Assembly (NCBI GenBank): GCA_025642075.2 | Contig: JAODUO010000879.1 | Span: 205,966-269,965 of the forward strand | Source of the DNA: Ridgeia piscesae | Lineage: Eukaryota; Annelida; Polychaeta; Sabellida; Siboglinidae | DNA length: 64,000 nucleotides | Reading direction: 5' to 3' | Part shown: positions 1 to 64,000 of the stretch, in pieces | How positions within the stretch are numbered: position 1 is the first letter of the stretch | Layout: each line of letters begins with the position of its first letter | Made by a program: the position numbers and the translations under genes | The notes under the pieces: model-generated | Databases searched by the model: none | The model's input: the letters and a program-made list of their open reading frames with translations, nothing else | What the model was told of the DNA's origin: nothing

Positions 1-3000
1 GAACCTGTGGGGTGTCACAGACTACAGGGGTACATTATTGGAACCAGTGGGGCGTCACAGACTACAGGGGTACATTATTGGAACCAGAGGGGCGTCACAG
101 ACTACAGGGACACAGGGGTACATTATTGGAACCTGTGGGGTGTCACAGACTACAGGGGCACATTATTGGAACCTGTGGGGCATCACAGACTACAGGGGTA
201 CATTATTGGAACCAGTGGGGTGTAACAGACTGCAGGGGCACAGGGCTACTTTATTGGAACCTGTGGGGTGTCACAGACTACAGGGGCACAGAGGTACATT
301 ATTGGAACCTGTGGGGTGTCACAGACTGCAGGGGCACAGGGCTACTTTATTGGAACCTGTGGTGTGTCACAGACTACAGGGGCACATTATTGGAACCAGT
401 GGGGCGTCATAGACTACAGGGGTACATTATTGGAACCAGAGGGGCGTCACAGACTACAGGGACACAGGGGTACATTATTGGAACATGTGGGGTGTCACAG
501 ACTACAGGGGCACATTATTGGAACCTGTGGGGTGTCACAGACTACAGGGTTACATTACTGGAACATGTGGGGTGTTACAGACTACAGAGGCACAGAGGTA
601 CATTACTGGAACCTGTGGGGTGTCACAGACTACAGGGGCACATTATTGGAACCAGAGGGGCGTCACAGACTACAGGGGCACATTATTGGAACCTGTGGGG
701 TGTCACAGACTGCAGGGGCACAGGGCTACTTTATTGGAACCTGTGGGGTGACACAGACTACAGGGGCACATTATTGGAACCTGTGGGGTGTCACAGACTG
801 CAGGGGCACAGGGCTACTTTATTGGAACCTGTGGGGTGACACAGACTACAGGGGCACAGGGGTACATTATTGGAACCAGTGGGGCGTCACAGACTACAGG
901 GGCACAGGGGTACATTATTGGAACCAGAGGGGTGTCACAGACTACAGGGGCACAGGGTACATTATTGGAACCTGTGGGGTGTCACAGACTACAGGGGCAC
1001 AGGGCTACATTACTGGAACCTGTGGGGTGTCACAGATACAGGGGCACAGGGTACATTATGGAACCTGTGGGGTGTCACAGACTACAGGGGCACAGAGACA
1101 TTATGGAACCTGTGGGGTGTCACAGACTACAGGGGCAAGGTACATTATGGAACCTGTGGGGTGTCACAGACTAGGGACACAGGGTACATACTGGAACCTG
1201 TGGGGTGTCACAGACTCAGGGGCACAAGGGGTACATTATGGAACCTGTGGGGTGTACAGACTACAGGGGCACAGGGTACATTATTGGAACCTGTGGGGTG
1301 TCACAGACTACAGGGGACAGGGTACATTATTGGAACCTGTGGGGTGTCACAGACGCAGGGGCACAGGGGTACATTATTGGAACCTGTGGGGGTCACAGAC
1401 TACAGGGGCACGGGTATTATTGGACCTGGGGGTCACAGACTGGGTACATTATTGGAACCGGGGGCGTCACAGACTAGCCAGGGTACATTTTGGAACCTGG
1501 GGTGTCACAGACCAGGGGCACAGGGACTTTATTGGAACCGTGGGGTACAGACTACAGGGGGACCAGTGGGGCGTTACAGAACGGGGGGTACAGACTTTCA
1601 GGGGCTTTGGGACAGACACAGGGGCTATAGAACACAGGGGCCAGACTACAGGGGCACATTATTGGAACCGGGGGTCAGGCACATATTGGAACGGGGGCTA
1701 CAGACTGGGGGTACATGAACAGGGGGGTACAGACTGGGGGACACAGGGGTACTTTATTGGAACGGGCTACAGAACCCGGGGGCACAGACTACGGGGGTAC
1801 ATTATTGGAACCAGTGGGGCGTCACAGTACAGGGGCACAGGGGTACTTATTGGAACCTGTGGGGTGTCACAGACTACAGGGGCACAGGGGGTCAGACTCA
1901 GGGGTACATAGACCAGGGGCACAGACTACAGGGACAGGGCTTATGACCTGGGGCCCACAGGGGTATTGGAACCAGAGGGGCTTCACAGACTACAGGGGCA
2001 CAGGGGTACATTATTGGAACCTGTGGGGTGTCACAGACTGCAGGGGCACAGGGCTACTTTATTGGAACCTGTGGGGTGTCACAGACTACAGGGGCACAGG
2101 GGTACATTATTGGAACCAGTGGGACGTCACAGACTACAGGGGCACAGGGGTACATTATTGGAACCTGTGGGGTGTCACAGACTGCAGGGGCACAGAGGTA
2201 CATTACTGGAACCTGTGGGGTGTCACAGACTACAGGGGCACAGAGGTACATTACTGGAACCTGTGGGGTGTCACAGACTACAGGGGCACAGGTACATTAT
2301 TGGAACCTGTGGGGCGTCACAGACTGCAGGGGCACAGAGGTACATTACTGGAACCTGTGGGGTGTCACAGACTACAGGGGCACAGAGCTACACTACTGGA
2401 ACCTGTGGGGTGTCACAGATTACAGGGGCACAGAGGTACATTACTGGAACCTGTGGGGTGTCACAGACTACAGGGGCACAGAGGTACATTACTGGAACCT
2501 GTGGGGTGTCACAGACTACAGGGGCACAGAGGTACATTACTGGAACCTGTGGGGTGTCACAGATTACAGGGGCACAGAGGTACATTACTGGAACCTGTGG
2601 GGTGTCACAGACTACAGGGGCACAGAGGTACACTACTGGAACCTGTGGGGTGTCACAGACTACAGGGGCACAGAGGTACATTACTGGAACCTGTGGGGTG
2701 TCACAGACTACAGGGGCACAGAGGTACATTACTGGAACCTGTGGGGTGTCACAGACTACAGGGGCACAGGGTACATTACTGGAACCTGTGGGGTGTCACA
2801 GACTGCAGGGGCACAGAGGTACATTACTGGAACCTGTGGGGTGTCACAGACTACAGGGGCACAGAGGTACATTACTGGAACCTGTGGGGTGTCACAGACT
2901 ACAGGGGCACAGAGGTACATTACTGGAACCTGTGGGGTGTCACAGACTACAGGGGCACAGAGGTACATTACTGGAACCTGTGGGGTGTCACAGATTACAG

Positions 3001-3540
3001 GGGCACAGAGGTACATTACTGGAACCTGTGGGGTGTCACAGACTGCAGGGGCACAGAGGTACATTACTGGAACCTGTGGGGTGTCACAGACTACAGGGGC
3101 ACAGAGGTACATTACTGGAACCTGTGGGGTGTCACAGACTACAGGGGCACAGGGGTACATTATTGGAACCTGTGGGGTGTCACAGACTACAGGGGCACAG
3201 GGGTACATTATTGGAACCTGTGGCGTGTCACAGACTACAGGGGTATATTACTGGAACATGTGGGGTGTCACAGACTACAGGGGCACATTATTGGAACATG
3301 TGGGGTGTCACAGACTACAGGGGCACATTATTGGAACCTGTGGGGTGTCACAGACTACAGGGGCATATTATTGGAACCTGTGGCGTGTCACAGACTACAG
3401 GGGTATATTACTGGAACCTGTGGCATGTCACAGACTACAGGGTACATTATTGGAACCTGTGCGGTGTCACATTATTGGAACATATGGGCACCACCAACTA
3501 CAGGGGTAAATTATTGGAACCCACGGAGAATCACCAACTA
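1..3540. repeat. 40/48-bp minisatellite array (left edge)
   Basis: A tandem array built on the core GAACCTGTGGGGTGTCACAG plus a tail containing ACTACAGGGGCACA. Two unit lengths alternate: about 40 bp (common at 1-1000 and 3230-3440) and 48 bp, the longer one carrying an extra CACAGAGGT-like block. Units at about 2160-3140 are almost identical, while 1040-1960 is riddled with small deletions. Long open frames on both strands result from the 48-bp period (16 codons) and are not genes. The array begins before the window and decays into a CA-rich stretch at its right end. It lies 3' of the last L3MBTL exon found, possibly within that gene's next intron. Confidence 0.97.
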
Positions 3541-7049: not shown

Positions 7050-10000
7050 TTACAGGCAATTTAGGTGATTGGGTGTTGGGAAGGGGAGGTTCATTATTGC
7101 TGCTTGAAAAGCTATGGGATTTTCTATTGCAGTAATGTGTGGTGGGATCATGTTCCAGATGCGAATTGCACGGGGGTAAAAGGAGAACACTGCAGTGTTG
7201 ATGCGGCACCTGGTGGCGATGTAATGGCCACGGTTTTTTGATGGTTTTAGTAGGCCCGGTGGTGGTGTGATGTTGATTATGTTATTTAAAATTTTGTAAA
7301 ATGTCATTGCTTGTTTGATAATCCTGCGTCGCTCAAGAGTGGGCCATCCAAGGGTGGCTATTAGGTCTGTTGTGGCTGTTTGGCGTCGATGGTTGTTTTT
7401 GACAAATCTGGCTGCACAGTGCTGTACCTTTTCAAGATGTTTAATTTGGGTAGTGGTGTGTGGATTCCATATAGGAGAGGCATATTCAAGTTTTGGTCGG
7501 ACTAGCATGTTATAGGCCGTTTCTTTTACATTAGGTTTGCATGGTCCGAGGGTTCGTTTGATCATACCTAAAACTTTTGATGATTTGGAAGCTATGTCAG
7601 TGATGTGATTCGCCCAGGTTAGTTTAGTATCTAATTTTATTCCAAGATATGGGTGGCTGGAGACTGTGGAGAGTGGCACACCACAAAGGGAATACGAATG
7701 TAGTCTGGGTTTGGTTTTGTTTGTTATTGGGAGGTGCACACATTTGGGGATGTTAAACTCCATTTGCCATTTGTTGGACCATGTTTGTAGTTGGATCAGG
7801 TCAGATTGGAGGATGTTGTTATCTGTTTCAGATTTGATTTTGCGATAGATGATGCTGTCATCAGCAAAGAGCCGTATTGGAGATTGAATGTTGTTGTTTA
7901 TGTCATTTATGTATAGCAGAAAAAGAACTGGTCCTAGGACTGAGCCCTGTGGTACTCCAGATGTAACACATGTATTATCCGACAGGGCGCCGTTGACTGA
8001 AACTCTCTGTTTTCGGTGTGAAAGAAATGATTTTATCCAGTTTTTTGTGTTTCCAGTTATTCCATAGAAGGCTAATTTTGATAGGAGGCGTTTATGAGGG
8101 ACTTTGTTAAAGGCTTTGGCGAAATCAAGCAGGATGGCATCTATCTGTGACTTGTTATCCATAGCTGTTATCCAGTCATGGACTGTCTCGATGAGTTGGG
8201 ACTCACAAGACAGCCCTGACTGGAAACCATGTTGAAAGTGGAGGAGGATGTTGTGTTTGTGTAAGTGTTTCCACATGTTGCTAAGGATAATGTGCTCCAT
8301 CACTTTGCAGAGGATGCATGTTAATGAAATGGGTCTGTAATTGGCAGGGTCTGATTTGAGGCTCTTTTTGTGTATTGGTGTTACTAGTGCCTGGAGCCAG
8401 TCATCTGGAAGTTTGGAAGTGTTGTATGACTGCTGAAAAATGTGTGTGATAATTGGGGCTATTTCTGCTGCAGCCTCTTTGAGGACCCTAGCAGGTAATT
8501 CGTATGGGCCTGTAGCTTTATTTTGATTTATATTTTTCAGTTGCTTGACTACTCCGTCTATCCCAATTTCGAGGAAGGGGATATCGGAGTAGACGGATGG
8601 AGATAGTTTGGGGATGGGGTAGATTTCTTGGGTGAACACGGAGCTGAAATGGTTGTTAAGGGTATTTGCCTTGTCGCGATCATTTGTGATTATTTGGCCA
8701 TTTGTTTGCAAAGTAGGGATGCCAATGCATTCACGTTTGTTTACTTTCATGAATGACCAGAATTGTTTTGGGTTTGTTTTTAGACTTTCTCCAATGTGGT
8801 TATTTAGGTAGTCTGAGTAGGATTTGCCTGCAGCTTTGCTGGCTTGTCTTCGGAGTTGCCTAAACTTTTCCCAGTCACTGTTTCGTCCAGTTTGTTTTGC
8901 TTTTTTGTGGCTTTTGTTGCGTTTTCTTTGCATTCTTATTATTTCACGTGTAATCCAGGGGAGGTGCGCTTTGGCTTTGGTGTTTCGGCTAGGAATATTG
9001 CGGTCAACTAACGAAGTAAGATTATTCCTGAAGAAGTTCCAATTTTCATTTATGTCTCTTGAGTTTGGGTTCCTGTGGAAGTATGTTGATGTTAGTTGAT
9101 TTATATCATCCTTGAGTTTATCCCAGTTTGCAGATTTATATTGGAAGATTTTGTGTGGTAGTTTTCTGTTACGGACAGGGTTTAGGTTTACATTAAAGGT
9201 CACAGCTTCGTGGTCACTCATTCCAGGGGTATTTACGATTATTGATGGGTTTGAGGTGAGTATAAGGTCAAGGATATTGCCAGAGTCAATTTGTGTGGGA
9301 TTGTTCATCATGTTTTGCAGGCCAAATTCATTAATGATTTCAAGAAGTTTATTGTGTTTGCTGGCTGTTCTGTTGTTAGTGATTTGCTGTTTACTCCAGT
9401 TGATATCGGGAAGGTTGAAGTCTCCTGCTATGACTACATTTGGTGGGGTTTTCTGTGTTCTATATAGTTTTGTCAGAGATTCGTGCAGGGCTTCAAGTGA
9501 TTGGAGATGGTCATTGGGGGGTCGGTAGTAGCTGGCAAAGTAAATGGATTTATTTCTTGTAAAATGAACTTTTGTCCACACTATTTCACAGTTTGAGTTT
9601 AGGTTGGTTAGTGGCTCGGCAACAATGTCATCTCGAAAGGCTATGAGGACACCACCTCCATGAATGCTTCTGTCTTTACGGATGGCGTTATAGTTGGGAG
9701 GAAGGAATGAGTAGGTAGGGTAGTTTTCGTCTATTTTGGTTTCAACTAGGAACATGATGTCTGGATTATTTGACTGGATGGTTGTTTTTAATTGGGTTGT
9801 CTTGGTGATACTTTTGATGCTGTTGGTATTGATCAGGATTGCGTTAAGTGTGTTTCGTTTGGTTTTCTTGCTACGTTCAGGGGTTGAAGTATTTTGGGGG
9901 TTCGGTCCAAAGGTTAGATCATAGGTTTGGGATGTGTCATTTGTGTTTGTTCTGTCAATGAGGCTGTTAGATCGTGTAGGGTCAACATGATTAGTGGTCA

Positions 10001-10388
10001 GGATTTCGGTATCTTTGGAGATGGGGCCTGGATTTAGTTGGATGTCTCCTGATAGGATGATGCACAAAAGTAGGGTGAATGTTGTTGCTGTCTTGTTTGA
10101 CCTGGGTCTGTATGATGGTGGAGTGGTAGATAATCTAGTAGAACTGTTTGATCTCAGACATTTTAGCTGTGCGATGGTATTCCAGATGGGACTGTATATG
10201 TAGTGTGATGTGATAGAATTTGTGTTTCCTTTACTGGTTTTGTTGTCTATGTGGTCGGTCTCGGTTATGTTGTTATGAGAGCACTTCAGTTGGTGATTAA
10301 GTCTACAGGTGGCGTACAGACATGCAATCATGAACAAAGAGTATTTGAAGGTGCGTCTTGAGTGGGTATTATGCAAAGAACCAGCCAT
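7050..10388 (-). CDS. LINE ORF2-type polyprotein: endonuclease + reverse transcriptase (1112 aa)
   Basis: The protein nicks target DNA and reverse-transcribes its own RNA. Residues 1-122 form a basic leader ending in a hydrophobic stretch and a 2A-like motif, SGDIQLNPGP (113-122). Residues about 183-400 are an exonuclease/endonuclease/phosphatase-fold endonuclease, with AGDFNLPDINW near 321-331 and SDHEAV near 393. The reverse transcriptase follows, with PVLFLLYIND and the catalytic FADD at 841-844; motif A reads LDFAKAFNKVPH, keeping the catalytic Asp (about 755) but carrying Asn at about 761 where most relatives have a second Asp. The C-terminus has the usual LEYASPIWNPH block of CR1/L2-type elements. 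There are no internal stops. The first Met was taken as the start; no Kozak comparison decides it. Confidence 0.93.
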   Translation of the reverse strand: MAGSLHNTHSRRTFKYSLFMIACLYATCRLNHQLKCSHNNITETDHIDNKTSKGNTNSITSHYIYSPIWNTIAQLKCLRSNSSTRLSTTPPSYRPRSNKTATTFTLLLCIILSGDIQLNPGPISKDTEILTTNHVDPTRSNSLIDRTNTNDTSQTYDLTFGPNPQNTSTPERSKKTKRNTLNAILINTNSIKSITKTTQLKTTIQSNNPDIMFLVETKIDENYPTYSFLPPNYNAIRKDRSIHGGGVLIAFRDDIVAEPLTNLNSNCEIVWTKVHFTRNKSIYFASYYRPPNDHLQSLEALHESLTKLYRTQKTPPNVVIAGDFNLPDINWSKQQITNNRTASKHNKLLEIINEFGLQNMMNNPTQIDSGNILDLILTSNPSIIVNTPGMSDHEAVTFNVNLNPVRNRKLPHKIFQYKSANWDKLKDDINQLTSTYFHRNPNSRDINENWNFFRNNLTSLVDRNIPSRNTKAKAHLPWITREIIRMQRKRNKSHKKAKQTGRNSDWEKFRQLRRQASKAAGKSYSDYLNNHIGESLKTNPKQFWSFMKVNKRECIGIPTLQTNGQIITNDRDKANTLNNHFSSVFTQEIYPIPKLSPSVYSDIPFLEIGIDGVVKQLKNINQNKATGPYELPARVLKEAAAEIAPIITHIFQQSYNTSKLPDDWLQALVTPIHKKSLKSDPANYRPISLTCILCKVMEHIILSNMWKHLHKHNILLHFQHGFQSGLSCESQLIETVHDWITAMDNKSQIDAILLDFAKAFNKVPHKRLLSKLAFYGITGNTKNWIKSFLSHRKQRVSVNGALSDNTCVTSGVPQGSVLGPVLFLLYINDINNNIQSPIRLFADDSIIYRKIKSETDNNILQSDLIQLQTWSNKWQMEFNIPKCVHLPITNKTKPRLHSYSLCGVPLSTVSSHPYLGIKLDTKLTWANHITDIASKSSKVLGMIKRTLGPCKPNVKETAYNMLVRPKLEYASPIWNPHTTTQIKHLEKVQHCAARFVKNNHRRQTATTDLIATLGWPTLERRRIIKQAMTFYKILNNIINITPPPGLLKPSKNRGHYIATRCRINTAVFSFYPRAIRIWNMIPPHITAIENPIAFQAAIMNLPFPTPNHLNCL
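10023..10052 (-). other. 2A-like ribosome-skipping motif in LINE leader
   Basis: Codes for LSGDIQLNPGP, preceded by a hydrophobic LLLCIIL stretch. The consensus of active 2A peptides is D-V/I-E-x-N-P-G-P; here Gln replaces Glu, while NPGP is perfect. 2A-like sequences in the same N-terminal position are known in sea-urchin and other invertebrate non-LTR elements. Whether this variant skips is unknown. Confidence 0.6.
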
Positions 10389-10440
10389 ATCACCAGCTTA
10401 TATGATAATGGTTAATAGTCAATAAAAATGTGTAATAATA

Positions 10441-13592: not shown

Positions 13593-16500
13593 CTGTAGGA
13601 ACAGTCATCTACTTACTTGTATGACACTTGCATTGCAAATGGTGCTAGGCTACTGATCAGATATGACCTTAGTCAGATATGAAGACCACTAAATTTACCA
13701 GGATCTGTGCAGAAAACAATCCATGGTTTCTACCAGACGTTGGTCTGATACATTTTAATTCTGTCACTATACTGACCATCAAAGCAGACACCCAACTATA
13801 ATTTAATAGATTGTCAAAAATGACATACTGCGATGCATAGCTTGCACGATAAAACAATTCTGGAATGTATACTGTTAGGGCAATAGGTAATTGTTTCGAC
13901 AAAATAACACATAATTGTGAAGACAGTGTTATTGCATAAATCATACATGTTCAAATAAAACACCCTGAAGGTCATTATGAAATAATACCACTGCTGTATA
14001 TTTTAATTCAATTTTGTGCACAATACCACAATGACGCCAGCAGCTTACATCCTTGAACAGCTTCATGGGAGCAGCGACTGCGTTCTCCCGCTCCAGGTAG
14101 TGGGCCCAGTGAAAGCCACGCGACTTCTTGGGTGTGTGTGTGTGTGTGAAGGTAATCTTTGTTGTCAAGTGTCCATTCTGCTCCTCCCTGTCTGGGTCCA
14201 TCTTCACCACCTTCGCCTCTCTGTGCTCCTCGGGCAGACTCAGCCTCCGTCTCTTTTTCTTCTCCTTTTCGTGGGACGTCTTCACATGCTTCATCATGCA
14301 CTTCCTGGTACACACACATCATTTAGGTGACTCTTCCTTGGTCTGATTCCTTCTTTTTTTAATTCAGTTTTGTTTTACTAAAAAGCTTATCTAAGTAGTA
14401 TTTATTTTTGCATTTAAAAAAACTGGATTCATAACACACAGATTAAGGAAGCAACTTTAAGCAACCAATGGAGAAATAAAATCTTGTGACCTCAACAGTG
14501 TGCCCTCAGGTCTCAGGTTGTTTACTCCAAACAGCCCAAACTTGGGCTAACGCAGGAGTTTGTAGTGCTTCTTGTGCGCATGCGTTTGGTTGTATGTATG
14601 TTTGTTTGTTTGTTTGTTATAACTTGTTTGTTTGTTTTACAGGCAATTTAGGTGATTGGGTGTTGGGAAGGGGAGGTTCATTATTGCTGCTTGAAAAGCT
14701 ATGGGATTTTCTATTGCAGTAATGTGTGGTGGGATCATGTTCCAGATGCGAATTGCACGGGGGTAAAAGGAGAACACTGCAGTGTTGATGCGGCACCTGG
14801 TGGCGATGTAATGGCCACGTTTTTTGATGGTTTTAGTAGGCCCGGTGGTGGTGTGATGTTGATTATGTTGTTTAAAATTTTGTAAAATGTCATTGCTTGT
14901 TTGATAATCCTGCGTCGCTCAAGAGTGGGCCATCCAAGGGTGGCTATTAGGTCTGTTGTGGCTGTTTGGCGTCGATGGTTGTTTTTGACAAATCTGGCTG
15001 CACAGTGCTGTACCTTTTCAAGATGTTTAATTTGGGTAGTGGTGTGTGGATTCCATATAGGAGAGGCATATTCAAGTTTTGGTCGGACTAGCATGTTATA
15101 GGCCGTTTCTTTTACATTAGGTTTGCATGGTCCGAGGGTTCGTTTGATCATACCTAAAACTTTTGATGATTTGGAAGCTATGTCAGTGATGTGATTTGCC
15201 CAGGTTAGTTTAGTATCTAATTTTATTCCAAGATATGGGTGGCTGGAGACTGTGGAGAGTGGCACACCACAAAGGGAATACGAATGTAGTCTGGGTTTGG
15301 TTTTGTTTGTTATTGGGAGGTGCACACATTTGGGGATGTTAAACTCCATTTGCCATTTGTTGGACCATGTTTGTAGTTGGATCAGGTCAGATTGGAGGAT
15401 CCAAATGTTTATTGTGATAAAGAAACCATGACACATCGTTTTCCTTTATTCAGTATTGGTCAATCTTCATTTATGAAAGCAAAGCTCAGTGTATTATATA
15501 TAAGTAAAGTTAAACATATTTATTATTTAGCCTTCCAGTCCTCAAAACGTTGTGCTGCACTAAGTCGGCAGTAACAGGAACAACACAGAAATATGTATGT
15601 AAGTTCTTTGTGAAAATAACTCCCAAGTACAAGAAGGCTTCATAAAGATGATTTTCAGTAATTATTCCTTCATTCTCTCTATCACTTCATTGCTAAATGA
15701 TGGTGATAATGAAATCTACATCACATACCCTTAGGTTATGTTTGCCAGTAGAGACAGGATGAGAGCTGGGGACTTACTTGGACGCAAAAGAACCAACGCA
15801 AGACTTGCTACAGAATCTGCCTCCATTACAGAATTCTGTGATCATGCCGTAGACTCCACAGTTCTCACAGCGACAGATGCCATTGGTGTCTGCTGCCATC
15901 TCCTGGGCCTCTGACAACAAACACAACCATGGTGTCACACTGTATCAGCTCACACAACCATACCAAACATGACCAACCCACATCAAACACAACCATGGTG
16001 TCACACTGTATCACCTCACACATCCATACCAAACATGACCAACCCACATCAAACACAACCATGGTGTCACACTGTATCACCTCACACATCCATACCAAAC
16101 ATGACCAACCCACATCAAACACAACCATGGTGTCACACTGTATCAGCTCACACATCCACACCAAACATGACCAACCCACATCAAACACAACCATGGTGTC
16201 ACACTGTATCACCTCACACATCCATACCAAACATGACCAACCCACATCAAACACAACCATGGTGTCACACTGTATCAGCTCACACATCCATACCAAACAT
16301 GACCAACCCACATCAAACACAACCATGGTGTCACACTGTATCAGCTCACACATCCATACCAAACATGACCAACCCACATCAAACACAACCATGGTGTCAC
16401 ACTGTATCACCTCACACATCCATACCAAACATGACCAACCCACATCAAACACAACCATGGTGTCACACTGTATCACCTCACACATCCATACCAAACATGA

Positions 16501-19500
16501 CCAACCCACATCAAACACAACCATGGTGTCACACTGTATCACCTCACACATCCATACCAAACATGACCAACCCACATCAAACACAACCATGGTGTCACAC
16601 TGTATCACCTCACACATCCATACCAAACATGACCAACCCACATCAAACACAACCATGGGTCACACTGTATCACCTCACACATCCATACCAAACATGACCA
16701 ACCCACATCAAACACAACCATGGAGTCACACTGTATCACCTCACACATCCATACCAAACATGACCAACCCACATCAAACACAACCATGGTGTCACACTGT
16801 ATCAGCTCACACAACCATACCAAACATGACCAACCCACATCAAATACAACCATGGTGTCACACTGTATCAGCTCACACATCCATACCAAACATGACCAAC
16901 CCACATCAAACACAACCATGGTGTCACACTGTATCACCTCACACATCCATACCAAACATGACCAACCCACATCAAACACAACCATGGTGTCACACTGTAT
17001 CACCTCACACATCCATACCAAACATGACCAACCCACATCAAACACAACCATGGTGTCACACTGTATCAGCTCACACATCCATACCAAACATGACCAACCC
17101 ACATCAAACACAACCATGGTGTCACACTGTATCACCTCACACATCCATACCAAACATGACCAACCCACATCAAACACAACCATGGTGTCACACTGTATCA
17201 CCTCACACATCCATACCAAACATGACCAACCCACATCAAACACAACCATGGTGTCACACTGTATCACCTCACACATCCATACCAAACATGACCAACCCAC
17301 ATCAAACACAACCATGGTGTCACACTGTATCACCTCACACATCCATACCAAACATGACCAACCCACATCAAACACAACCATGGAGTCACACTGTATCACC
17401 TCACACATCCATACCAAACATGACCAACCCACATCAAACACAACCATGGAGTCACACTGTATCACCTCACACATCCATACCAAACATGACCAACCCACAT
17501 CAAACACAACCATGGTGTCACACTGTATCAGCTCACACATCCATACCAAACATGACCAACCCACATCAAACACAACCATGGTGTCACACTGTATCAGCTC
17601 ACACAACCATACCAAACATGACCAATCCACATCAAACACAACCATGGTGTCAGACTGTATCAGCTCACACATCTATACCAAACATGACCAACCCACATCA
17701 AACACAACCATGGTGTCACTGTATCAGCTCACACATATATACCAAACATGACCAACCCACATCAAACACAACCATGGTGTCACACTGTATCACCTCACAC
17801 ATCCATACCAAACATGACCAACCCACACCAAACACAACCATGGTGTCAGACTGTATCAGCTCACACATCTATACCAAACATGGCCAACCCACACCAAACA
17901 CAACCATGGTGTCACTGTATCAGCTCACACATCTATACCAAACATGGCCAACCCACATCAAACACAACCATGGTGTCACTGTATCAGCTCACACATCTAT
18001 ACCAAACATGACCAACCCACATCAAACACAACCATGGTGTCAGACTGTATCAGCTCACACATCCATACCAAACATGACCAACCTACATCAAACATAACCA
18101 CATCCACTGTCAACACCAGCTACTACTAATCAAACAACTGACCGAACCACTAGAAACAGTTCCAATTCACAACTGGGGCAAAATTAATTTTATTTCAACA
18201 CAACATGCTATGTTTACCAGTAATTTCAGTTAGCTTAGTTTCAGTACCATATTTCAAATGTCATATTTGAATGAATAGTAAGATCTAAACTGTAATAACA
18301 ATCATAACAAATATGCATACTCAATTTGTAGCTCAAACTACATTTCCATGTAACCAGCCAATCCATCAATAGCACAAAATCACAGTGTTCTCCATAACTT
18401 CTCTGTGGCTACTTTTAAACCCATGCTGCCACCTACCTGTCATGCCAGAATCTCCATGCCCCTGCTGACTGCCATCTCCCTCGTCAGTTTCCATGGATAC
18501 CTTAGTGTCCACATCATCATCTTCTGTCACCATCTCAATCACACCAAACTCATTCAGCTTAAACTGCAATGCAGAACAGACAACTATCTAGTCACAGCAA
18601 ACAATTACAAGGAATATCATGCCATTTAGAATACATATTGTCCAGTGTTTCTGTTTTTATCAAAACAACAGTGGTTTGTTTTTTATTTATACAAAGCGTA
18701 AGAAACATCAAAAATATGATGTATAAAAGCAAGTCTGTGACCAAGGCAGATTGCTCCTGTTGCCTGCCAAGGGCTGATTCTGTTTCAGTGAACAAAATTA
18801 TTTATACATTTACCACATGGAGAAAGGATTCATATGCATTCTTGTTTGGCAAACACAACATTGAACAGTGCGTGCAGTGTGATGAGATACACTGAACAGT
18901 GCAGGCAATGTGATGAGATACACTGAACAGTGCAGGCAGTGTGATGAGATACACTGAACAGTGCAGGCAGTGTGATGAGATACACTGAACAGTGCAGGCA
19001 GTGTCATGAGATACACTGAACAGTGCAGGCAGTGTGATGAGATACACTGAACAGTGCAGGCAGTGTGATGAGATACACTGAACAGTGCAGACAGTGTGAT
19101 GAGATACACTGAACAGTGCAGACAGTGTGATGAGATACACTGAACAGTGCAGGCAGTGTCATGAGATACACTGAACAGTGCAGGCAGTGTGATGAGATAC
19201 ACTGAACAGTGCAGGCAGTGTGATGAGATACACTGAACAGTGCAGGCAGTGTCATGAGATACATTGAACAGTGCAGGCAGTGTCATGAGATACACTGAAC
19301 AGTGCAGGCAGTGTCATGAGATACACTGAACAGTGCAGGCAGTGTCATGAGATACATTGAACAGTGCAGGCAGTGTCATGAGATACACTGAACAGTGCAG
19401 GCAGTGTCATGAGATACACTGAACAGTGCAGGCAGTGTCATGAGATACACTGAACAGTGCAGGCAGTGTGATGAGATACATTGAACAGTGCAGGCAGTGT

Positions 19501-25087: not shown

Positions 25088-25300
25088 CTGAAAACAACAA
25101 TATATGTATAAGAGGATTACAAAAAATAAGTGACTTTGATACAAAGGTACTTACGAAATCAGGGAATTGTGCAGAAACATAACGTTTTATCCCTCAATGC
25201 TAAATTGCATAAACATAATTATTTGCTTACATCATCACTAAAATATCTGCTCTACAATAATTTCAGATGATACTACAACTAAGTTGATGTTTGACTGGTA
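25088..25300. other. Upstream of L3MBTL coding exon 1
   Basis: Contains the polypyrimidine tract and acceptor of exon 1, so this is intron rather than promoter. No transcription start can be assigned. Confidence 0.5.
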
Positions 25301-28300
25301 CAGTAGTCCCTCCCTTCACCGGACCCTCTGATGAGTGGACACCCGCTATGTCGGGACACTATCTCAATGTACAAACTGTTCTATCATGTTAATGTCCCTC
25401 TGATGAGTGGACACCCGCTATGTCGGGACACTATCTCAATGTACGAACTGTTCTATCATGTTAATGTCCCTCTGATGAGTGGACACCCACAACTAAGTCG
25501 ACTGTTTACTGTTAATGTCCCTCTGATGAGTGGACACCCGCTATGTCGGGACACTATCTCAATGTACGAACTGTTCTATCATGTTAATGTCCCTCTGATG
25601 AGTGGACACCCGCTATGTCGGGACACTATCTCAATGTACGAACTGTTCTATCATGTTAATGTCCCTCTGATGAGTGGACACCCGCTATGTCGGGACACTA
25701 TCTCAATGTACGAACTGTTCTATCATGTTAATGTCCCTCTGATGAGTGGACACCCGCTATGTCGGGACACTATCTCAATGTACAAACTGTTCTATCATGT
25801 TAATGTCCCTCTGATGAGTGGACACCCGCTATGTCGGGACACTATCTCAATGTACGAACTGTTCTATCATGTTAATGTCCCTCTGATGAGTGGACACCCG
25901 CTATGTCGGGACACTATCTCAATGTACGAACTGTTCTATCATGTTAATGTCCCTCTGATGAGTGGACACCCGCTATGTCGGGACACTATCTCAATGTACG
26001 AACTGTTCTATCATGTTAATGTCCCTCTGATGAGTGGACACCCGCTATGTCGGGACACTATCTCAATGTACGAACTGTTCTATCATGTTAATGTCCCTCT
26101 GATGAGTGGACACCCGCTATGTCGGGACACTATCTCAATGTACGAACTGTTCTATCATGTTAATGTCCCTCTGATGAGTGGACACCCGCTATGTCGGGAC
26201 ACTATCTCAATGTACAAACTGTTCTATCATGTTAATGTCCCTCTGTTGAGTGGACACCCGCTATGTCGGGACACTATCTCAATGTACAAACTGTTCTATC
26301 ATGTTAATGTCCCTCTGATGAGTGGACACCCGCTATGTCGGGACACTATCTCAATGTACAAACTGTTCTATCATGTTAATGTCCCTCTGATGAGTGGACA
26401 CCCGCTATGTCGGGACACTATCTCAATGTACAAACTGTTCTATCATGTTAATGTCCCTCTGATGAGTGGACACCCGCTATGTCGGGACACTATCTCAATG
26501 TACAAACTGTTCTATCATGTTAATGTCCCTCTGATGAGTGGACACCCGCTATGTCGGGACACTATCTCAATGTACAAACTGTTCTATCATGTTAATGTCC
26601 CTCTGATGAGTGGACACCCGCTATGTCGGGACACTATCTCAATGTACAAACTGTTCTATCATGTTAATGTCCCTCTGATGAGTGGACACCCGCTATGTCG
26701 GGACACTATCTCAATGTACAAACTGTTCTATCATGTTAATGTCCCTCTGATGAGTGGACACCCGCTATGTCGGGACACTATCTCAATGTACAAACTGTTC
26801 TATCATGTTAATGTCCCTCTGATGAGTGGACACCCGCTATGTCGGGACACTATCTCAATGTACAAACTGTTCTATCATGTTAATGTCCCTCTGATGAGTG
26901 GACACCCGCTATGTCGGGACACTATCTCAATGTACAAACTGTTCTATCATGTTAATGTCCCTCTGATGAGTGGACACCCGCTATGTCGGGACACTATCTC
27001 AATGTACAAACTGTTCTATCATGTTAATGTCCCTCTGATGAGTGGACACCCGCTATGTCGGGACACTATCTCAATGTACAAACTGTTCTATCATGTTAAT
27101 GTCCCTCTGATGAGTGGACACCCGCTATGTCGGGACACTATCTCAATGTACAAACTGTTCTATCATGTTAATGTCCCTCTGATGAGTGGACACCCGCTAT
27201 GTCGGGACACTATCTCAATGTACAAACTGTTCTATCATGTTAATGTCCCTCTGATGAGTGGACACCCGCTATGTCGGGACACTATCTCAATGTACGAACT
27301 GTTCTATCATGTTAATGTCCCTCTGATGAGTGGACACCCGCTATGTCGGGACACTATCTCAATGTACGAACTGTTCTATCATGTTAATGTCCCTCTGATG
27401 AGTGGACACCCGCTATGTCGGGACACTATCTCAATGTACGAACTGTTCTATCATGTTAATGTCCCTCTGATGAGTGGACACCCGCTATGTCGGGACACTA
27501 TCTCAATGTACGAACTGTTCTATCATGTTAATGTCCCTCTGATGAGTGGACACCCGCTATGTCGGGACACTATCTCAATGTACGAACTGTTCTATCATGT
27601 TAATGTCCATCTGATGAGTGGACACCTATGTCGGGACACTATCTCAATGTACAAACTGTTCTATCATGTTAATGTCCCTCTGATGAGTGGACACCTGCTA
27701 TGTCGGGACACTATCTCAATGTACAAACTGTTCTACCATGTTAATGTCCCTCTGATGAGTGGACACCTGCTATGTCGGGACACTATCTCAATGTACAAAC
27801 TGTTCTATCATGTTAATGTCCCTCTGATGAGTGGACACCCGCTATGTCGGGACACTATCTCAATGTACAAACTGTTCTACCATGTCAATGTCCCTCTGAT
27901 GAGTGGACACCCGCTATGTCGGGACACTATCTCAATGTACAAACTGTTCTATCATGTTAATGTCCCTCTGATGAGTGGACACCCGCTATGTCGGGACACT
28001 ATCTCAATGTACAAACTGTTCTACCATGTTAATGTCCATCTGATGAGTGGACACCTGCTATGTCGGGACACTATCTCAATGTACAAACTGTTCTATCATG
28101 TTAATGTCCATCTGATGAGTGGACACCTGCTATGTCGGGACACTATCTCAATGTACAAACTGTTCTACCATGTTAATGTCCATCTGATGAGTGGACACCT
28201 GCTATGTCGGGACACTATCTCAATGTACAAACTGTTCTATCATGTTAATGTCCATCTGATGAGTGGACACCTGCTATGTCGGGACACTATCTCAATGTAC

Positions 28301-30231
28301 AAACTGTTCTATCATGTTAATGTCCCTCTGATGAGTGGACACCTGCTATGTCGGGACACTATCTCAATGTACAAACTGTTCTACCATGTTAATGTCCCTC
28401 TGATGAGTGGACACCTGCTATGTCGGGACACTATCTCAATGTACAAACTGTTCTATCATGTTAATGTCCCTCTGATGAGTGGACACCCGCTATGTCGGGA
28501 CACTATCTCAATGTACAAACTGTTCTACCATGTCAATGTCCCTCTGATGAGTGGACACCCGCTATGTCGGGACACTATCTCAATGTACAAACTGTTCTAC
28601 CATGTCAATGTCCCTCTGATGAGTGGACACCCGCTATGTCGGGACACTATCTCAATGTACAAACTGTTCTATCATGTTAATGTCCCTCTGATGAGTGGAC
28701 ACCTGCTATGTCGGGACACTATCTCAATGTACAAACTGTTCTATCATGTTAATGTCCCTCTGATGAGTGGACACCCGCTATGTCGGGACACTATCTCAAT
28801 GTACAAACTGTTCTACCATGTTAATGTCCATCTGATGAGTGGACACCCGCTATGTCGGGACACTATCTCAATGTACGAACTGTTCTATCATGTTAATGTC
28901 CCTCTGATGAGGGGACACCCGCTATGTCGGGACACTATCTCAATGTACAAACTGTTCTACCATGTTAATGTCCATCTGATGAGTGGACACCTGCTATGTC
29001 GGGACACTATCTCAATGTACGAACTGTTCTATCATGTTAATGTCCATCTGATGAGTGGACACCCGCTATGTCGGGACACTATCTCAATGTACGAACTGTT
29101 CTATCATGTCAATGTCCGTTTGATGAGGGGACACCTGGTGGATGTGGACAGCGGACAAGATACTTTGCTAAGGCAGATATCAAGCATTAATTAAAAAAAA
29201 TCGGTCGAAATATTTTATTTACAAAATGGCGGTGGACAGAGCAGCAAATCTCCATTTTCGATGAACCAAACACAAACAAATTCTACCTAATTTCCCAACT
29301 GGGTGTGGATAATTGGTATTATTTATGGCTGGCTATTGTCTTGCATGTTTTCCATGTCACAGCACAAATGAAATGCCTGTTAACTAATTGCAATCTAGTC
29401 TGAGGCTGAGCTAAAGCTCACAGACACCAGTGGAGCTGACAACAAACTGAACAATGCCCTGAATTTGAGTTATTTAAATCACTTCTTACTTTGATGACTG
29501 AGCATTGAAAACAGTCTAATAAATACCTAGGTGCAATGCATACCCCTTGCCCCTTGCCTGTCATTGACATTGTTTATAAGTTTTATTGGAGCTCCCGCAA
29601 ACAGCTTCGGTACCCTATTATCGCCCATCGTATACGTTCCAGTTTTGTAGAATGAAGTGCAATCCGTTCACATCTATACAAATAATGTCCATCCATACAT
29701 CTATACTACATGTGCATGTTTTTAAATGTATGTACTTGTTTGCTAAGGATTATTATTTGAGTATATTAGACATGTAAATGAAAAACATATTTAACAACAA
29801 AAAATAAATACCATGTTCAAGTTTTACATGTAAAGATTATGTTAGTTGTGTAACAAAATATCATAATAGATGCTGCTGCTTTTCATGCAAGGTATTCTTT
29901 GCAACGTATGATCAGAAGTTGAACAAATATGCTAATTTTATACTTAGAACACAAATTACTGAGCATTATGTATTGACCTATAACCATGTCTTCTTTTTTA
30001 AAACAACAACCTACCATACATTTTTATATGAGATTAACAGGTAAATGTCTTTTTCCTTTTTTTGTAACATTATCATATTTATGGTAAAAAAACTCCTCTG
30101 TGATAAATGGTGCGCATACTTAGCGTCTAGAGCCACACACAGCGACTCAAAAATTCTGTCCCTCCGATGAGGGGACACCTGCAATGTAGGGACACTTTTG
30201 CTTGGATACAAGAGTGTCCACTGGACTACTG
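25301..30231. mobile_element. pogo/Tigger-like DNA element expanded by an internal satellite
   Basis: The ends read CAGTAGTCC (25301) and GGACTACTG (30231) and are flanked by TA on both sides (25299-25300, 30232-30233). This is the signature of Tc1/mariner-pogo elements. A 72-bp array starts just inside the left end. A single diverged copy of the same unit (TCCCTCCGATGAGGGGACAC, about 30159-30178) lies just inside the right end in the same orientation. The internal 29150-30150 has no recognisable transposase. Length is about 4.9 kb, of which 3.8 kb is satellite. The match of the inverted repeats is short (about 9 bp), so the element call is less sure than the array. Confidence 0.68.
25330..29140. 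repeat. 72-bp satellite (about 53 units)
   Basis: Highly homogeneous tandem units with cores GATGAGTGGACACCCGCTAT and CTATCATGTTAATGTCCCTC. Variants (TACGAA/TACAAA, CCCGC/CCTGC, CCCTC/CCATC) are clustered in blocks, indicating amplification of multi-unit segments. The third unit is shortened and carries ACAACTAAGT-containing sequence. Because 72 is 24 codons without a stop, a 1287-codon open frame spans the whole array; I do not call it a gene. Confidence 0.97.
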
Positions 30232-49763: not shown

Positions 49764-54272
<4,509 letters not shown>

Positions 54273-54500
54273 GGGTGTCTACGAACTCCTGTGAAACTGA
54301 AAGTGAAAATGTTTTCTTGGATACGAGCAGTCAGCATCATTATCTTCTACTGCAAGTGAGGGTGTTTATGGACATGCAAAGCTGAAAGTGAAAGTGTTTT
54401 CTTGGATGTGAGCTATAGGCATCCTTTTCTTGTACCACAAGTGATGGTGTCTGGGAACACGTATGAAGCTGAAAGTGTTTTCTTGAATGCGAAACTGTGG

Positions 54501-58355: not shown

Positions 58356-60673
58356 ATAGTATGCTTAGAACAATTAATTAATGTAAAATTGTTATATGAG
58401 TGATCACTGCAACACAGAACATTACATTTCTGTCCAGAAATTATACAATATTTATGGATAATAATTGTTATTGTGTCTTTCAGGGAATGGCAGAAGTTAG
58501 CACTCAGAGAAATACAGTCATATTTAATGCCTCCAAGAAAGAGCTCTTTACGACAAATAGTGGCTTCAAAGTGCTGAACAGAAAACTGAAGACTGCTTGG
58601 AAAGTAGCACAGTGAGTGAAACAGCTACTTTTGTATACTGATGAAATATTGTTTCTTCTATATACTAGTACTAGTAGATCATAATGAAAGATGTCTTGGT
58701 GGTAACAGTTTACAATGGTATTAACATATGTTCAATAAAGCAATAAATGTTCGGTCATTAAGATGTAAACTGTAGATCTTAGACTAGCCAAATTAATTAC
58801 ATAAATATATAAGGAACAGTACATTTCTTTTAAGACCTGTCATACATTCAGGATAATTATAGACCGCCACATGATGACCTCATGATTAATTTTTAATTAA
58901 GAACCACAATACCATTGTGTGAACATTTTGGTGTTATACATTTCAGAAACAAAGATGAGATTGCTGATGACCGGATTGAACAAGCTCGGGTGTTTGTATT
59001 GGCTGGACCCAAAGAGAAATTCACATCATCAGAAGTAAATAACATCTTGGATCATTTCTATGTTGATCTATTTTTATTTTCAATGCGGCCAACAATGTCA
59101 AAATTTAGCAAAAACTGGCACCATGCTAACATTACTTAGACACTTCTGTTGCATTGTTAAATGGTGTGTGTCTGTCTGGTTTCATGTATACATATGCAGA
59201 TATAGACGCCTAGTTGCTAATGATTAACTTTTACATTTGGACATTCTGTATCCTGGTTGTGTTTGTTGTTGGACATACCACACCGTCACATACGTGGTGT
59301 TTGTTGTTGGACATACCACACCGTCACATACGTGGTGTTTGTTGTTGGACATACCACACCGTCACATACGTGGTGTTTGTTGTTGGACATACCACACCGT
59401 CACATATACGTGGTGTTTGTTGTTGGACATACCACACCGTCACATACGTGGTGTTTGTTGTGTGTACAACAGTTTGAGACATTGAAGAAGTATGTGGAGA
59501 CTGGAGGCAGCCTCCTGGTGATGATGGGAGAGGGGGGAGACTCCAAGTACAACACAAACATGAACTTCTTCCTCGAGGAGTACGGCATCGCCGTCAACAA
59601 TGGTACGTCAATAAGTAACAGTTACAAATCATTTTCAATTGATGCTTAGTTCTGTGGAATCTACACATCACAGTCTGACGTTCCCAGATGCATAAGCATT
59701 TCCATTATAATGCAGCACATCTAGAATTAACTGTGGGTTATATGATCTGAATATTGTTTAGGAAGGTAGTTTTCATTAAGAAATTAAACTAACCATAATG
59801 TGACTATGCCTAGGATACATGTAGCAGCTGCACAGGATTAATTCCTAGAAAGTTGATAAACAGTTATGTTTATTGTAAATAAATTATAGTCTTGACTTAT
59901 GACAGTCTTAGAGTCATTACATAGTTGAATCTGGATCACATAATGCTCAAGGAGGACACTGACATATTTACCTGCTTTTATACACACCATTACTGCCATA
60001 TATTTATGTATTTATGTTCCTTGCATGTTGTAGACGCAGTTGTAAGAACTCACTTCTACAAATATTTCCATCCAAAAGAGGCACTCATTGCAAATGGAGT
60101 CCTCAACAGGTGAGGCACAATTTACAGTGCTAAATATACACACACCTGTATCCCAATTGTGGAACACACCACACCAGGTGGCGTAGATCAGTCAAAAATA
60201 AAACATGTTAAAGTCAAAGTTGATTTACCTTAGATAAAACTACTTTTTTATCACTAAAAGAAATTAGTAAACAAATAGTTGTCTGTTACTAATAAAATAT
60301 TACTCAAGTAGGGTACCAAAGTAGTTTTACTTTGTCACATGACTGCGTAGAATGTGTGTGATGTGAGAGCCTGTGTTGTAGGGCCATCAGCCAGGCCGCA
60401 GGGAAGATGGTAGGAGTGACAGAGGACGAGGAGAACAATGCACAGTGAGTGTGACATCAATGATTGACTGGAATAGCCATCACCATTCCTAACTAAGTAT
60501 CTACAATATATGCCTAAATATCTATTAAAAATGCTTTAGGTAGGATGTTAAATTTTTTATATGCTTCCCTCCTTCACTGGATCTTGCACCAAGCTAATTA
60601 ATTAACAGGACAGCCATCAAGCCAACAACCATGGGTTTAACTTGGGTAAAGTATACCTTACAAATATAATTTC

Positions 60674-60709
<36 letters not shown>

Positions 60710-61058
60710 GTACACTATTGGATTTTACGAATATATATATTACACTATTGGTTTTTATTATGACTGCTAGCCAGTTTCAGATTCGCATATTTATGATGTT
60801 AAAATGCGTCATGCATTTGGTCAATAAATGCACCAATATATAATGTGGTAATGTCTTGTTTGGTAAATATATCACTGCTATATGACTGCAGCACCCTGAC
60901 TGCTTACCCTAAGTCTGTCATGTGACTCTAGGGCACTGTCCTTCCTCTATCCATACGGGTCAACGTTGAATGTCATCAAGCCAGCGACGGCTGTGTTGTC
61001 ATCAGGCAGTGTCTCCTTCCCCCTCAACAGACCCGTGTGTGCCTTCTACAAGCACAAG
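57094..61058 (+). CDS. IFT52: IFT52, intraflagellar transport protein 52, 5' half
   Basis: IFT52 is a core subunit of IFT complex B, needed for building and maintaining cilia; it bridges IFT-B sub-assemblies inside the cilium. Exons are 57094-57138, 58484-58611, 58947-59034, 59473-59602, 60034-60109, 60382-60444 and 60932-61058, all GT-AG and in phase, 219 codons so far against about 437 residues in human. The visible part is the N-terminal GIFT domain: VIFNASKKELFTTNSGFKVL, AGPKEKFTSSEFETLKKYVE, TGGSLLVMMGEGGDS, FFLEEYGIAVNNDAVVRTHF, YKYFHPKEALIANGVLNRAI and LNRPVCAFYKHK. All match vertebrate IFT52 in order. The gene runs off the right edge. A 34-bp satellite starts at the exon 6 donor (counting from the exon with ATG 58487 as exon 1; the upstream 57094 exon is exon 0). 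Confidence 0.95.
57139..58483 (+). other. IFT52 intron 0
   Basis: 1345-bp intron. Holds TA microsatellites at 57590-57615 and 58264-58352; otherwise no feature. Confidence 0.65.
58264..58352. repeat. (TA)n microsatellite
   Basis: Two long TATATA runs separated by a TTGA interruption near 58318. Confidence 0.95.
58484..58611 (+). CDS. IFT52: IFT52 exon 1
   Basis: Acceptor TCTTTCAG, donor CACA|GTGAGT. It codes for GMAEVSTQRNTVIFNASKKE and on to LKTAWKVA, matching the human IFT52 N-terminus (ILFNAYKKEIFTTNNGYK). Confidence 0.93.
58947..59034 (+). CDS. IFT52: IFT52 exon 2
   Basis: Acceptor TTTCAG, donor GAA|GTAAAT. It codes for NKDEIADDRIEQARVFVLAG and PKEKFTSSE. Confidence 0.93.
59259..59466 (+). 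repeat. 38-bp minisatellite in IFT52 intron 2, adjoining exon 3
   Basis: Five units containing GTGTTTGTTGTTGGACATAC and CACACCGTCACATACGTG. One unit has a 2-bp insertion. The final partial unit (GTGTTTGTTGT) leads straight into GTGTACAACAG, the acceptor of exon 3, and forms its pyrimidine/GT-rich tract. Confidence 0.95.
59473..59602 (+). CDS. IFT52: IFT52 exon 3
   Basis: Acceptor GTACAACAG, donor AATG|GTACGT. It codes for FETLKKYVETGGSLLVMMGE and FFLEEYGIAVNN. A 38-bp minisatellite runs into its acceptor. Confidence 0.95.
59603..60033 (+). other. IFT52 intron 3
   Basis: 431-bp intron, no repeat recognised. Confidence 0.8.
60034..60109 (+). CDS. IFT52: IFT52 exon 4
   Basis: Acceptor TTGTAG, donor AACAG|GTGAGG. 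It codes for DAVVRTHFYKYFHPKEALIA and NGVLNR. Confidence 0.95.
60382..60444 (+). CDS. IFT52: IFT52 exon 5
   Basis: Acceptor TTGTAG, donor GCACA|GTGAGT. It codes for AISQAAGKMVGVTEDEENNA. Confidence 0.93.
60445..60931 (+). other. IFT52 intron 5
   Basis: 487-bp intron with a (TA)n run at about 60677-60706 and a repeated TACACTATTGG motif nearby. Confidence 0.8.
60932..61058 (+). CDS. IFT52: IFT52 exon 6
   Basis: Acceptor GACTCTAG, donor CACAAG|GTTAGT. It codes for ALSFLYPYGSTLNVIKPATA, VLSSGSVSFPLNRPVCAFYK and HK. Its last 22 bases plus donor are the founder of the 34-bp satellite. Confidence 0.95.
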
Positions 61059-64000
61059 GTTAGTCTGTGTGCGTGCCTTCTACAGGCACAATGTTAGTCT
61101 ATGTGTGTGCCTTCTACAGGCACAAGGTTAGTCTGTGTGCGTGCCTTCTACAGGCACAATGTTAGTCTATGTGTGTGCCTTCTACAGGCTCAAGGTTAGT
61201 CTGTGTGTGTGCCTTCTACAGGCACAATGTTAGTCTATGTGTGTGCCTTCTACAAGCACAAGGTTAGTCTATGTGTGTACCTTCTACAAGCACAAGGTTA
61301 GTCTATGTGTGTGCCTTCTACAAGCTCAAGGTTAGTCTGTGTGTGTGCCTTCTACAAGCACAAGGTTAGTCTGTGCGTGCCTTCTACAAGCACAAGGTTA
61401 GTCTATGTGTGTACCTTCTACAAGCACAAGGTTAGTCTATGTGTGTGCCTTCTACAAGCACAAGGTTAGTCTATGTGTGTGCCTTCTACAGGCTCAAGGT
61501 TAGTCTATGTGTGTGCCTTCTACAGGCTCAAGGTTAGTCTATGTGTGTGCCTTCTACAAGCACAAGGTTAGTCTACGTGTGTGCCTTCTACAAGCACAAG
61601 GTTAGTCTACGTGTGTGCCTTCTACAAGCACAAGGTTAGTCTATGTGTGTGCCTTCTACAAGCACAAGGTTAGTCTCTGTGTGTGCCTTCTACAAGCACA
61701 AGGTTAGTCTATGTGTGTGCCTTCTACAGGCTCAAGGTTACTCTATGTGTGTGCCTTCTACAGGCACAAGGTTAGTCTGTGTGTGTGCCTTCTACAGGCA
61801 CAAGGTTAGTCTATGTGTGTGCCTTCTACAAGCACAAGGTTAGTCTATGTGTGTGCCTTCTACAAGCACAAGGTTAGTCTACGTGTGTGCCTTCTACAAG
61901 CATATCACGTGTGTGCCTTCTAACACAAGGTTATCTATGTGTGTGCCTTCTACAAGCACAAGGTTAGTCTCTGTGTGTGCCTTCTACAAGCACAAGGTTA
62001 GTCTATGTGTGTGCCTTCTACAGGCTCAAGGTTAGTCTATGTGTGTGCCTTCTACAGGCACAAGGTTAGTCTGTGTGTGTGCCTTCTACAGGCACAAGGT
62101 TAGTCTATGTGTGTGCCTTCTACAGGCACAAGGTTAGTCTATGTGTGTGCCTTCTACAAGCACAAGGTTAGTCTATGTGTGTGCCTTCTACAAGCACAAG
62201 GTTAGTCTACGTGTGTGCCTTCTACAAGCACAAGGTTAGTCTGTGTGTGTGCCTTCTACAGGCTCAAGGTTAGTCTGTGTGTGTGCCTTCTACAAGCACA
62301 AGGTTAGTCTGTGTGTGTGCCTTCTACAAGCACAAGGTTAGTCTATGTGTGTGCCTTCTACAAGCACAAGGTTAGTCTATGTGTGTGCCTTCTACAGGCA
62401 CAAGGTTAGTCTGTGTGTGCCTTCTACAGGCTCAAGGTTAGTCTATGTGTGTGCCTTCTACAAGCACAAGGTTAGTCTACGTGTGTGCCTTCTACAAGCA
62501 CAAGGTTAGTCTATGTGTGTGCCTTCTACAGGCACAAGGTTAGTCTATGTGTGTGCCTTCTACAGGCTCAAGGTTAGTCTACGTGTGTGCCTTCTACAAG
62601 CACAAGGTTAGTATACGTGTGTGCCTTCTACAAGCACAAGGTTAGTCTATGTGTGTGCCTTCTACAGGCTCAAGGTTAGTCTATGTGTGTGCCTTCTACA
62701 AGCACAAGGTTAGTCTACGTGTGTGCCTTCTACAAGCACAAGGTTAGTCTATGTGTGTGCCTTCTACAAGCACAAGGTTAGTCTATGTGTGTGCCTTCTA
62801 CAGGCACAAGGTTAGTCTATGTGTGTGCCTTCTACAAGCACAAGGTTAGTCTATGTGTGTGCCTTCTACAAGCACAAGGTTAGTCTGTGTGTGTGCCTTC
62901 TACAAGCACAAGGTTAGTCTATGTGTGTGCCTTCTACAAGCACAAGGTTAGTCTACGTGTGTGCCTTCTACAAGCACAAGGTTAGTCTAGTGTGTGCCTT
63001 CTACAAGCACAAGGTTAGTCTATGTGTGTGCCTTCTACAGGCACAAGGTTAGTCTACGTGTGTGCCTTCTACAGGCTCAAGGTTAGTCTATGTGTGTGCC
63101 TTCTACAAGCACAAGGTTAGTCTGTGTGTGTGCCTTCTACAAGCACAAGGTTAGTCTATGTGTGTGCCTTCTACAAGCACAAGGTTAGTCTACGTGTGTG
63201 CCTTCTACAAGCACAAGGTTAGTCTATGTGTGTGCCTTCTACAAGCACAAGGTTAGTCTATGTGTGTGCCTTCTACAGGCTCAAGGTTAGTCTATGTGTG
63301 TGCCTTCTACAGGCACAAGGTTAGTCTATGTGTGTGCCTTCTACAGGCACAAGGTTAGTCTATGTGTGTGCCTTCTACAGGCTCAAGGTTAGTCTATGTG
63401 TGTGCCTTCTACAAGCACAAGGTTAGTCTACGTGTGTGCCTTCTACAAGCACAAGGTTAGTCTATGTGTGTGCCTTCTACAGGCACAAGGTTAGTCTATG
63501 TGTGTGCCTTCTACAGGCACAAGGTTAGTCTATGTGTGTGCCTTCTACAGGCACAATGTTAGTCTATGTGTGTGCCTTCTACAGGCACAAGGTTAGTCTA
63601 TGTGTGTGCCTTCTACAGGCACAAGGTTAGTCTATGTGTGTGCCTTCTACAGGCTCAAGGTTAGTCTATGTGTGTGCCTTCTACAGGCACAAGGTTAGTC
63701 CATGTTTGTGCCTTCTACAAGCACAAGGTTAGTCTACGTGTTTGCCTTCTACAGGCACAAGGTTAGTCTACGTGTCTGCCTTCTACAGGCTCAAGGTTAG
63801 TCTACGTGTGTGCCTTCTACAGGCACAAGGTTAGTCTACGTGTGTGCCTTCTACAGGCACAAGGTTAGTCTACGTGCATGCCTTCTACAGGCACAAGGTT
63901 AGTCTATGTGTGTGCCTTCTACAGGCACAAGGTTAGTCTACGTGTGTGCCTTCTACAGGCACAAGGTTAGTCTACGTGTGCCTTCTACAGGCACAAGGTT
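61059..64000 (+). repeat. 34-bp satellite copying the IFT52 exon 6 end and its splice donor
   Basis: About 86 units, continuing beyond the window. Each unit holds TGTGTGCCTTCTACAAGCAC then AAG|GTTAGTCT(A/G)T, that is the coding tail of exon 6 followed by its 5' splice site. Many units carry TTCTACAG|GC instead of TTCTACAAGC, which adds a pyrimidine-rich 3' splice-site lookalike upstream of the donor. The period of 34 is not a multiple of three. A few units near 61900-61935 have deletions. The next IFT52 exon must lie beyond the right edge. Confidence 0.97.

Follow-up and report, generated by a model that had tools for sequence, protein, structure and literature searches.

A tandem array built from the exon 6 splice junction of IFT52 in Ridgeia piscesae, and related arrays at other splice junctions

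IFT52, a cilium-building gene, carries at the end of its coding exon 6 in the annelid Ridgeia piscesae a 34-bp tandem array in which the tail of the exon and its splice donor are copied in 88 or more units. In our judgment this is quite probably a junction-spanning minisatellite of the "mirage" type, tolerated because the donor nearest the exon body would stay in use. The repeat type itself is already known; new here are the lineage, the scale, and the recurrence, and we found no report of junction arrays in annelids in the open-licence literature. The array lies in a stretch of 64,000 nucleotides (contig JAODUO010000879.1, C879 herein, positions 205,966 to 269,965), referred to as the window, which we analyzed together with 200,000 further bases fetched from the same contig (C879:5966-205965, including 7,500 N).

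The joined exons 1 to 6 match mouse IFT52 (PDB 5fms, E 2.8e-81) and Pfam family PF23355 (E 8e-99). Coding exons 1 to 5 occupy 58487-58611, 58947-59034, 59473-59602, 60034-60109, and 60382-60444 of the plus strand. Exon 6 (60932-61058, plus strand) ends in phase 0 at CACAAG|GTTAGTCT, and its exon-proximal donor GTTAGT, the one we expect to be in use, is at 61059-61064 (plus strand). The last 24 nt of the exon form the exonic part of the first array unit and encode VCAFYKHK, which falls within a conserved stretch of IFT52: among 120 aligned relatives, the Ala is found in 110, the Tyr in 97, and the final Lys in 92. This conservation indicates that the array derives from the exon and not the reverse. 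The sequence GTGTGTG sits in exon 6 where unit 1 starts, TG-rich sequence precedes the first intronic copy, and such stretches would suit slippage. Upon a protein search of the same assembly, four later IFT52 exons were found on a second contig, C1175, and a reading of its first 9 kb yielded a further one at 1155-1223, which we call exon 8; the numbering 8 to 12 presumes a single missing exon 7. Exon 7 had no match in the assembly by the protein search, which is weak evidence of absence since that search also missed exon 8, and exon 7 may be located between the two contigs.

TRF analysis of the window described the repeat as a single array at 61035-64000 (plus strand) with a period of 34, 87.8 copies, and 94% matches. 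Splitting the array by a fixed word gave 88 unit starts, with units of exactly 34 nt in 81 of 88 cases, in good agreement with the count of about 86 in the earlier note. Each unit consists of 24 nt from the tail of exon 6 and, after them, 10 intronic nt that include the donor. The array starts 24 nt within the exon and the repeat thus spans the exon-intron boundary, so that unit 1 is the exon tail with the real donor. An extent of 61030 to 64000 had been proposed; the array is real and starts at 61035, but position 64000 is where the contig terminates, inside the array, and the copy number of 88 is therefore a lower bound. The proposal that every unit bears the same donor holds for most of them, as CAAG|GTTAGT is present in 80 of the 88 units. 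However, four have CAAT|GTTAGT, and the other four comprise one GTTACT, one GTTATC, one unit lacking the donor, and one clipped by the window end. When the 628-Mb assembly was searched with a 29-base unit pattern, all 56 matches fell within this array, and the reversed pattern, used as a control, gave none. Together, these two results exclude a chance origin. A plasmid search using the exon gave no match, and neither did a search of the whole window against Rfam at the gathering score.

The weak CAAT|GTTAGT donors are unevenly placed, three of the four being in units 2, 4, and 6 (window 61059-61300), directly after the real donor. This may reflect copying of one dimer. Selection could also have placed them there, and dimer copying would give the same pattern. 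As for higher-order structure, only lag 7 of the 30 lags compared fell below P 0.05 (P = 0.0145, a weak signal).

The same kind of array was found at other junctions, on the acceptor as well as the donor side. Within IFT52 itself, a 29-bp array (C1175:1672-3107) extends through the exon 9 acceptor into the start of that exon and contains 48 copies of TTTGTAG|AT, the true acceptor included. At the exon 10 donor, a stretch made up of the final 45 nt of the exon and GTAA occurs a second time, with 44 of 49 nt identical and a duplication score of 73, compared with at most 28 in 500 shuffles. This two-copy duplication is an early, nascent stage, and IFT52 alone thus has donor copies numbering two at exon 10 and at least 88 at exon 6, and 48 acceptor copies at exon 9. 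The contig bearing the exon 9 acceptor and the exon 10 donor was reached via the protein, not via an array. In RNF11, a 36-bp acceptor array (C879:55229-59952; 131 copies by TRF) runs into the last exon, exon 3, and presents 83 places with an acceptor plus exon head, counting the true one. The name RNF11 was taken from relatives; the match to Lamellibrachia satsuma, also a siboglinid, is 99% identical and covers 70% of the query. The annotated L. satsuma RNF11 joins exactly at the exon-proximal position, which would favor use of that site here too if L. satsuma carries the array. Amphioxus, where mirages are known, was considered as the source of the DNA and rejected: Branchiostoma ranks 43rd among the PCMTD relatives and far down among those of IFT52, and RNF11 points to Lamellibrachia, while a tree of IFT52 did not single out a phylum. 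Among the named relatives listed for PCMTD and IFT52 there was no siboglinid, many entries bearing no name. Lastly, a 48-bp array on the minus strand (C879:205780-209436, window 1-3471, starting just outside the window) repeats the start of an MBT exon, MBT2, with its acceptor, in about 57 copies. The acceptor arrays of RNF11 and the MBT-domain gene are the mirror image of the donor array at IFT52 exon 6. Donor and acceptor boundaries are hence both affected, the donors being those of IFT52 exons 6 and 10 and the acceptors those of IFT52 exon 9, RNF11 exon 3, and MBT2. This recurrence, together with the conserved VCAFYKHK, bears out the earlier view that a splice junction gave rise to the satellite, with the exon coming first. 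The same view had held in reserve a neutral minisatellite with only the first donor used; this is close to the reading we prefer, except that the IFT52 array is one case of a recurrent feature and not a singular one.

Other arrays approach acceptors in a less telling way. A 29-bp array (50362-50662, plus strand) runs into the acceptor of exon 2 of a PCMTD-like gene, where we counted by eye six CCCAGG including the true one; this junction scored 17 of 32 in the ungapped comparison described below, no higher than its controls. Three arrays ending 4 to 12 nt from acceptors only abut them, without clear junction copies: a 66-bp array (15914-18100, minus strand) ends 4 nt from the acceptor of the zinc-finger exon of the MBT-domain gene, a 28-bp array (52286-52567, plus strand) ends 5 nt from that of PCMTD-like exon 4, and a 38-bp array (59259-59461, plus strand) ends 12 nt from that of IFT52 exon 3, in which the ungapped comparison found no junction copies. 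The MBT-domain gene is so called since its domain match is to MBT only; we presume that it is L3MBTL, and the "zinc-finger" label of its exon is likewise our assumption. An 85-bp repeat at 54256-54452 (2.3 copies) was considered as a donor copy and rejected, as it is located at the PCMTD-like stop codon. The MBT-domain gene, the PCMTD-like gene, and IFT52 are adjacent across window 13-64 kb, and we take L3MBTL1 and IFT52 to be adjacent on human chromosome 20 as well.

Use of the other junction copies is predicted to be damaging. For the 85 further donors at IFT52 exon 6, the retained sequence contains a stop in 84 cases and shifts the frame in one. The array had been suggested to spread donor choice over its length; by these predictions, such spreading would mostly destroy the mRNA. 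Similarly, use of the 47 other acceptors at IFT52 exon 9 would introduce a stop in 45 cases and a frameshift in two. At RNF11, 60 of the 82 upstream acceptors are disruptive and 22 leave the frame open, and isoforms arising from these 22 are possible. For the right protein to be made, donor arrays require their first copy and acceptor arrays their last. The calculated U1 pairing of the real IFT52 exon 6 donor equals that of its copies (-6.7 kcal/mol each); with the real donor no stronger than the copies, position rather than strength must decide.

These observations are consistent with the following mechanism. Perhaps by slippage between the TG-rich stretches, a short tandem duplication would arise that takes in the tail of IFT52 exon 6 together with the donor. 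If the spliceosome stays with the donor adjoining the exon body, the extra copy becomes intron and could then multiply unhindered, reaching at least 88 units. Acceptors of other exons would behave likewise, the copy adjoining the exon body being the one that yields the right protein. Exon definition, that is, recognition across the exon, seems the likeliest reason that both kinds of array are tolerated, and the need for the first donor and the last acceptor would fit it. From sequence data, we infer that the exon-proximal site is probably the one in use at these arrays, and the arrays are probably neutral in origin. Where donors are duplicated, in vitro splicing often favors the intron-proximal copy. 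Such a preference would predict the opposite of exon-proximal use and, like the equal U1 pairing of the donor copies and the 22 open-frame acceptors of RNF11, counts against our reading.

Arrays that place dozens of nearly identical splice sites next to an exon offer a natural test of the spliceosome's choice among equivalent sites. With a two-copy stage and arrays of 48 and 88 copies in the same gene, IFT52 shows how junctions can themselves be a source of intron growth, a point relevant to models in which introns are gained by duplication of junctions.

Three known systems offer comparisons. Minisatellites called mirages are described in amphioxus Adh3, the globins BflGb6 and BflGb9, TnC, and PGBD5; they consist of units of 10 to 160 bp that repeat over donor or acceptor boundaries with AG/GT in many units, and they are reported as not disturbing splicing (PMC3087553; PMC3902484). 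Their length is described there as differing among alleles and even between tissues. Both the mirages and the worm arrays are tandem repeats across boundaries with copies of splice signals, present in 80 of 88 units at IFT52 exon 6. However, the former are from a chordate and, in the globins, hold 6 and 3 units (PMC3087553), whereas those of the annelid hold 88 or more, 83, 57, and 48. In human genes, internal tandem repeats at exon-intron boundaries are described as altering splicing and forming new introns (PMC2812944). They are minisatellites at boundaries like those of the worm, but they average four units of 30 bp and lie in recently duplicated primate genes, while the worm arrays are far longer and lie in conserved genes (PMC2812944). 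The third system is the human IFI6 (6-16) minisatellite, which is described as having multiple splice donors; two downstream units are in use there, giving three mRNAs (Turri et al. 1995 as cited; PMC4526556). In both IFI6 and IFT52, the minisatellite sits where an exon ends on its 3' side and provides several donors. In IFI6 the further donors are used in mRNA, whereas at IFT52 exon 6 they are predicted to give a stop or frameshift. The IFI6 units are 12 bp long and keep the frame; the further donors of the 34-bp unit do not keep it open.

To what extent junction arrays recur was assessed statistically with hand-made models of four genes. We compared 45 junctions with their own introns, unrelated introns, and shuffled sequences, without gaps over 32 nt. 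Five of the 45 scored 23 to 32 of 32, and unrelated introns and shuffles reached at most 21. Three of these five were known via their arrays; those of IFT52 exons 9 and 10 were not. Both RNF11 exon 2 sites and the IFT52 exon 11 donor were left out of the tests, and the donor of exon E3 of the MBT-domain gene was left out of this comparison alone. Of 37 splice sites, 7 had an array edge no more than 30 nt away, against a null mean of 1.09, with none of 5000 rotations as high; by type, 6 of 18 acceptors but 1 of 19 donors were involved. Within the window, 4 of the 11 intronic arrays, which were entered by hand from the TRF list and include a few of short period, lie no more than 15 nt from a splice site (expected 0.65, P 2.4e-3).

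Taken at face value, these figures, along with the three affected junctions of IFT52 (exons 6, 9, and 10), would suit a mutational process that favors tandem repeats at splice junctions, the arrays then being its signature and not only the survivors of tolerance. Co-transcriptional R-loops and slippage in polypyrimidine tracts are candidate processes, and such a bias would be compatible with neutrality. The excess of acceptors over donors is not predicted by plain tolerance and counts against our preferred reading. However, ascertainment inflates the result, since the RNF11 and MBT2 junctions were found through their arrays and IFT52 exon 6 was the starting finding; with the five ascertained sites removed, array edges lie near 4 of 32 sites (P about 0.016). 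Only four genes with hand-made models are involved, and selection against arrays in exons would gather edges at junctions even if their origin were unbiased. We thus consider junction-biased amplification doubtful. Its broader form, in which splice junctions of this lineage, chiefly acceptors, are amplification hot spots tied to transcription or splicing, and arrays each holding tens to more than 100 splice sites occur genome-wide, seems equally unlikely to us; if true, introns would be longer by kilobases, and new introns or isoforms would occasionally appear.

Mirage-type tolerance also accounts better for the IFT52 array than a regulatory role, in which array length would set the share of wrong-donor, decaying transcripts, or U1 binding would tune IFT52 output. 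Retention of the donor in 80 of 88 units and the decay predicted for nearly all wrong donors would fit such a role, but conservation is not clearly higher in the donor columns of the unit than in the remaining ones, and similar arrays occur in functionally unrelated genes, making regulation quite improbable. Nor does anything in this analysis support the suggested U1 sink or a longer splicing time. An assembly artefact might be suspected from the contig ending in the array and from the unmatched exon 7 (in a search that missed exon 8 too). Against this, the 87 complete units comprise 27 distinct sequences, the longest repeated run of units is four, within the range of shuffles, several other junction arrays exist, one with just two copies, and the contig break suggests that the full array extends beyond the part present here; we regard an artefact as very improbable. 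We give almost no credence to the proposal that the units act as micro-exons, each supplying both an acceptor and a donor. In its favor, the acceptor-like CTACAG lies 7 nt before the donor, as claimed, in 41 of the 84 units parsed downstream of exon 6, and in the remaining 43 CTACAAG precedes the donor by 6 nt. Against it, exons of 6 to 7 nt with 27 to 28 nt to the next unit would fall below usual limits, and inclusion of 7 nt shifts the frame.

Across the fetched sequence and the window combined, 64 arrays with a period of at least 10 occupy 45,481 of 264,000 bases (17.2%). At window 7050-10397 (minus strand), an open frame of 1115 aa encodes endonuclease and reverse-transcriptase domains and is presumably a LINE-like element; a shorter frame at 14735-15445 (minus strand) has a C-terminal stretch in common with it. 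A 72-bp array of 50 copies at window 25510-29135 contains CTGATGAG, which we take to be as in hammerhead ribozymes; an Rfam search of 25300-25800 gave no match up to E 1. Lastly, a 24-bp array of 182 copies at C879:92361-96685 has AAC|GTGAGT in its unit.
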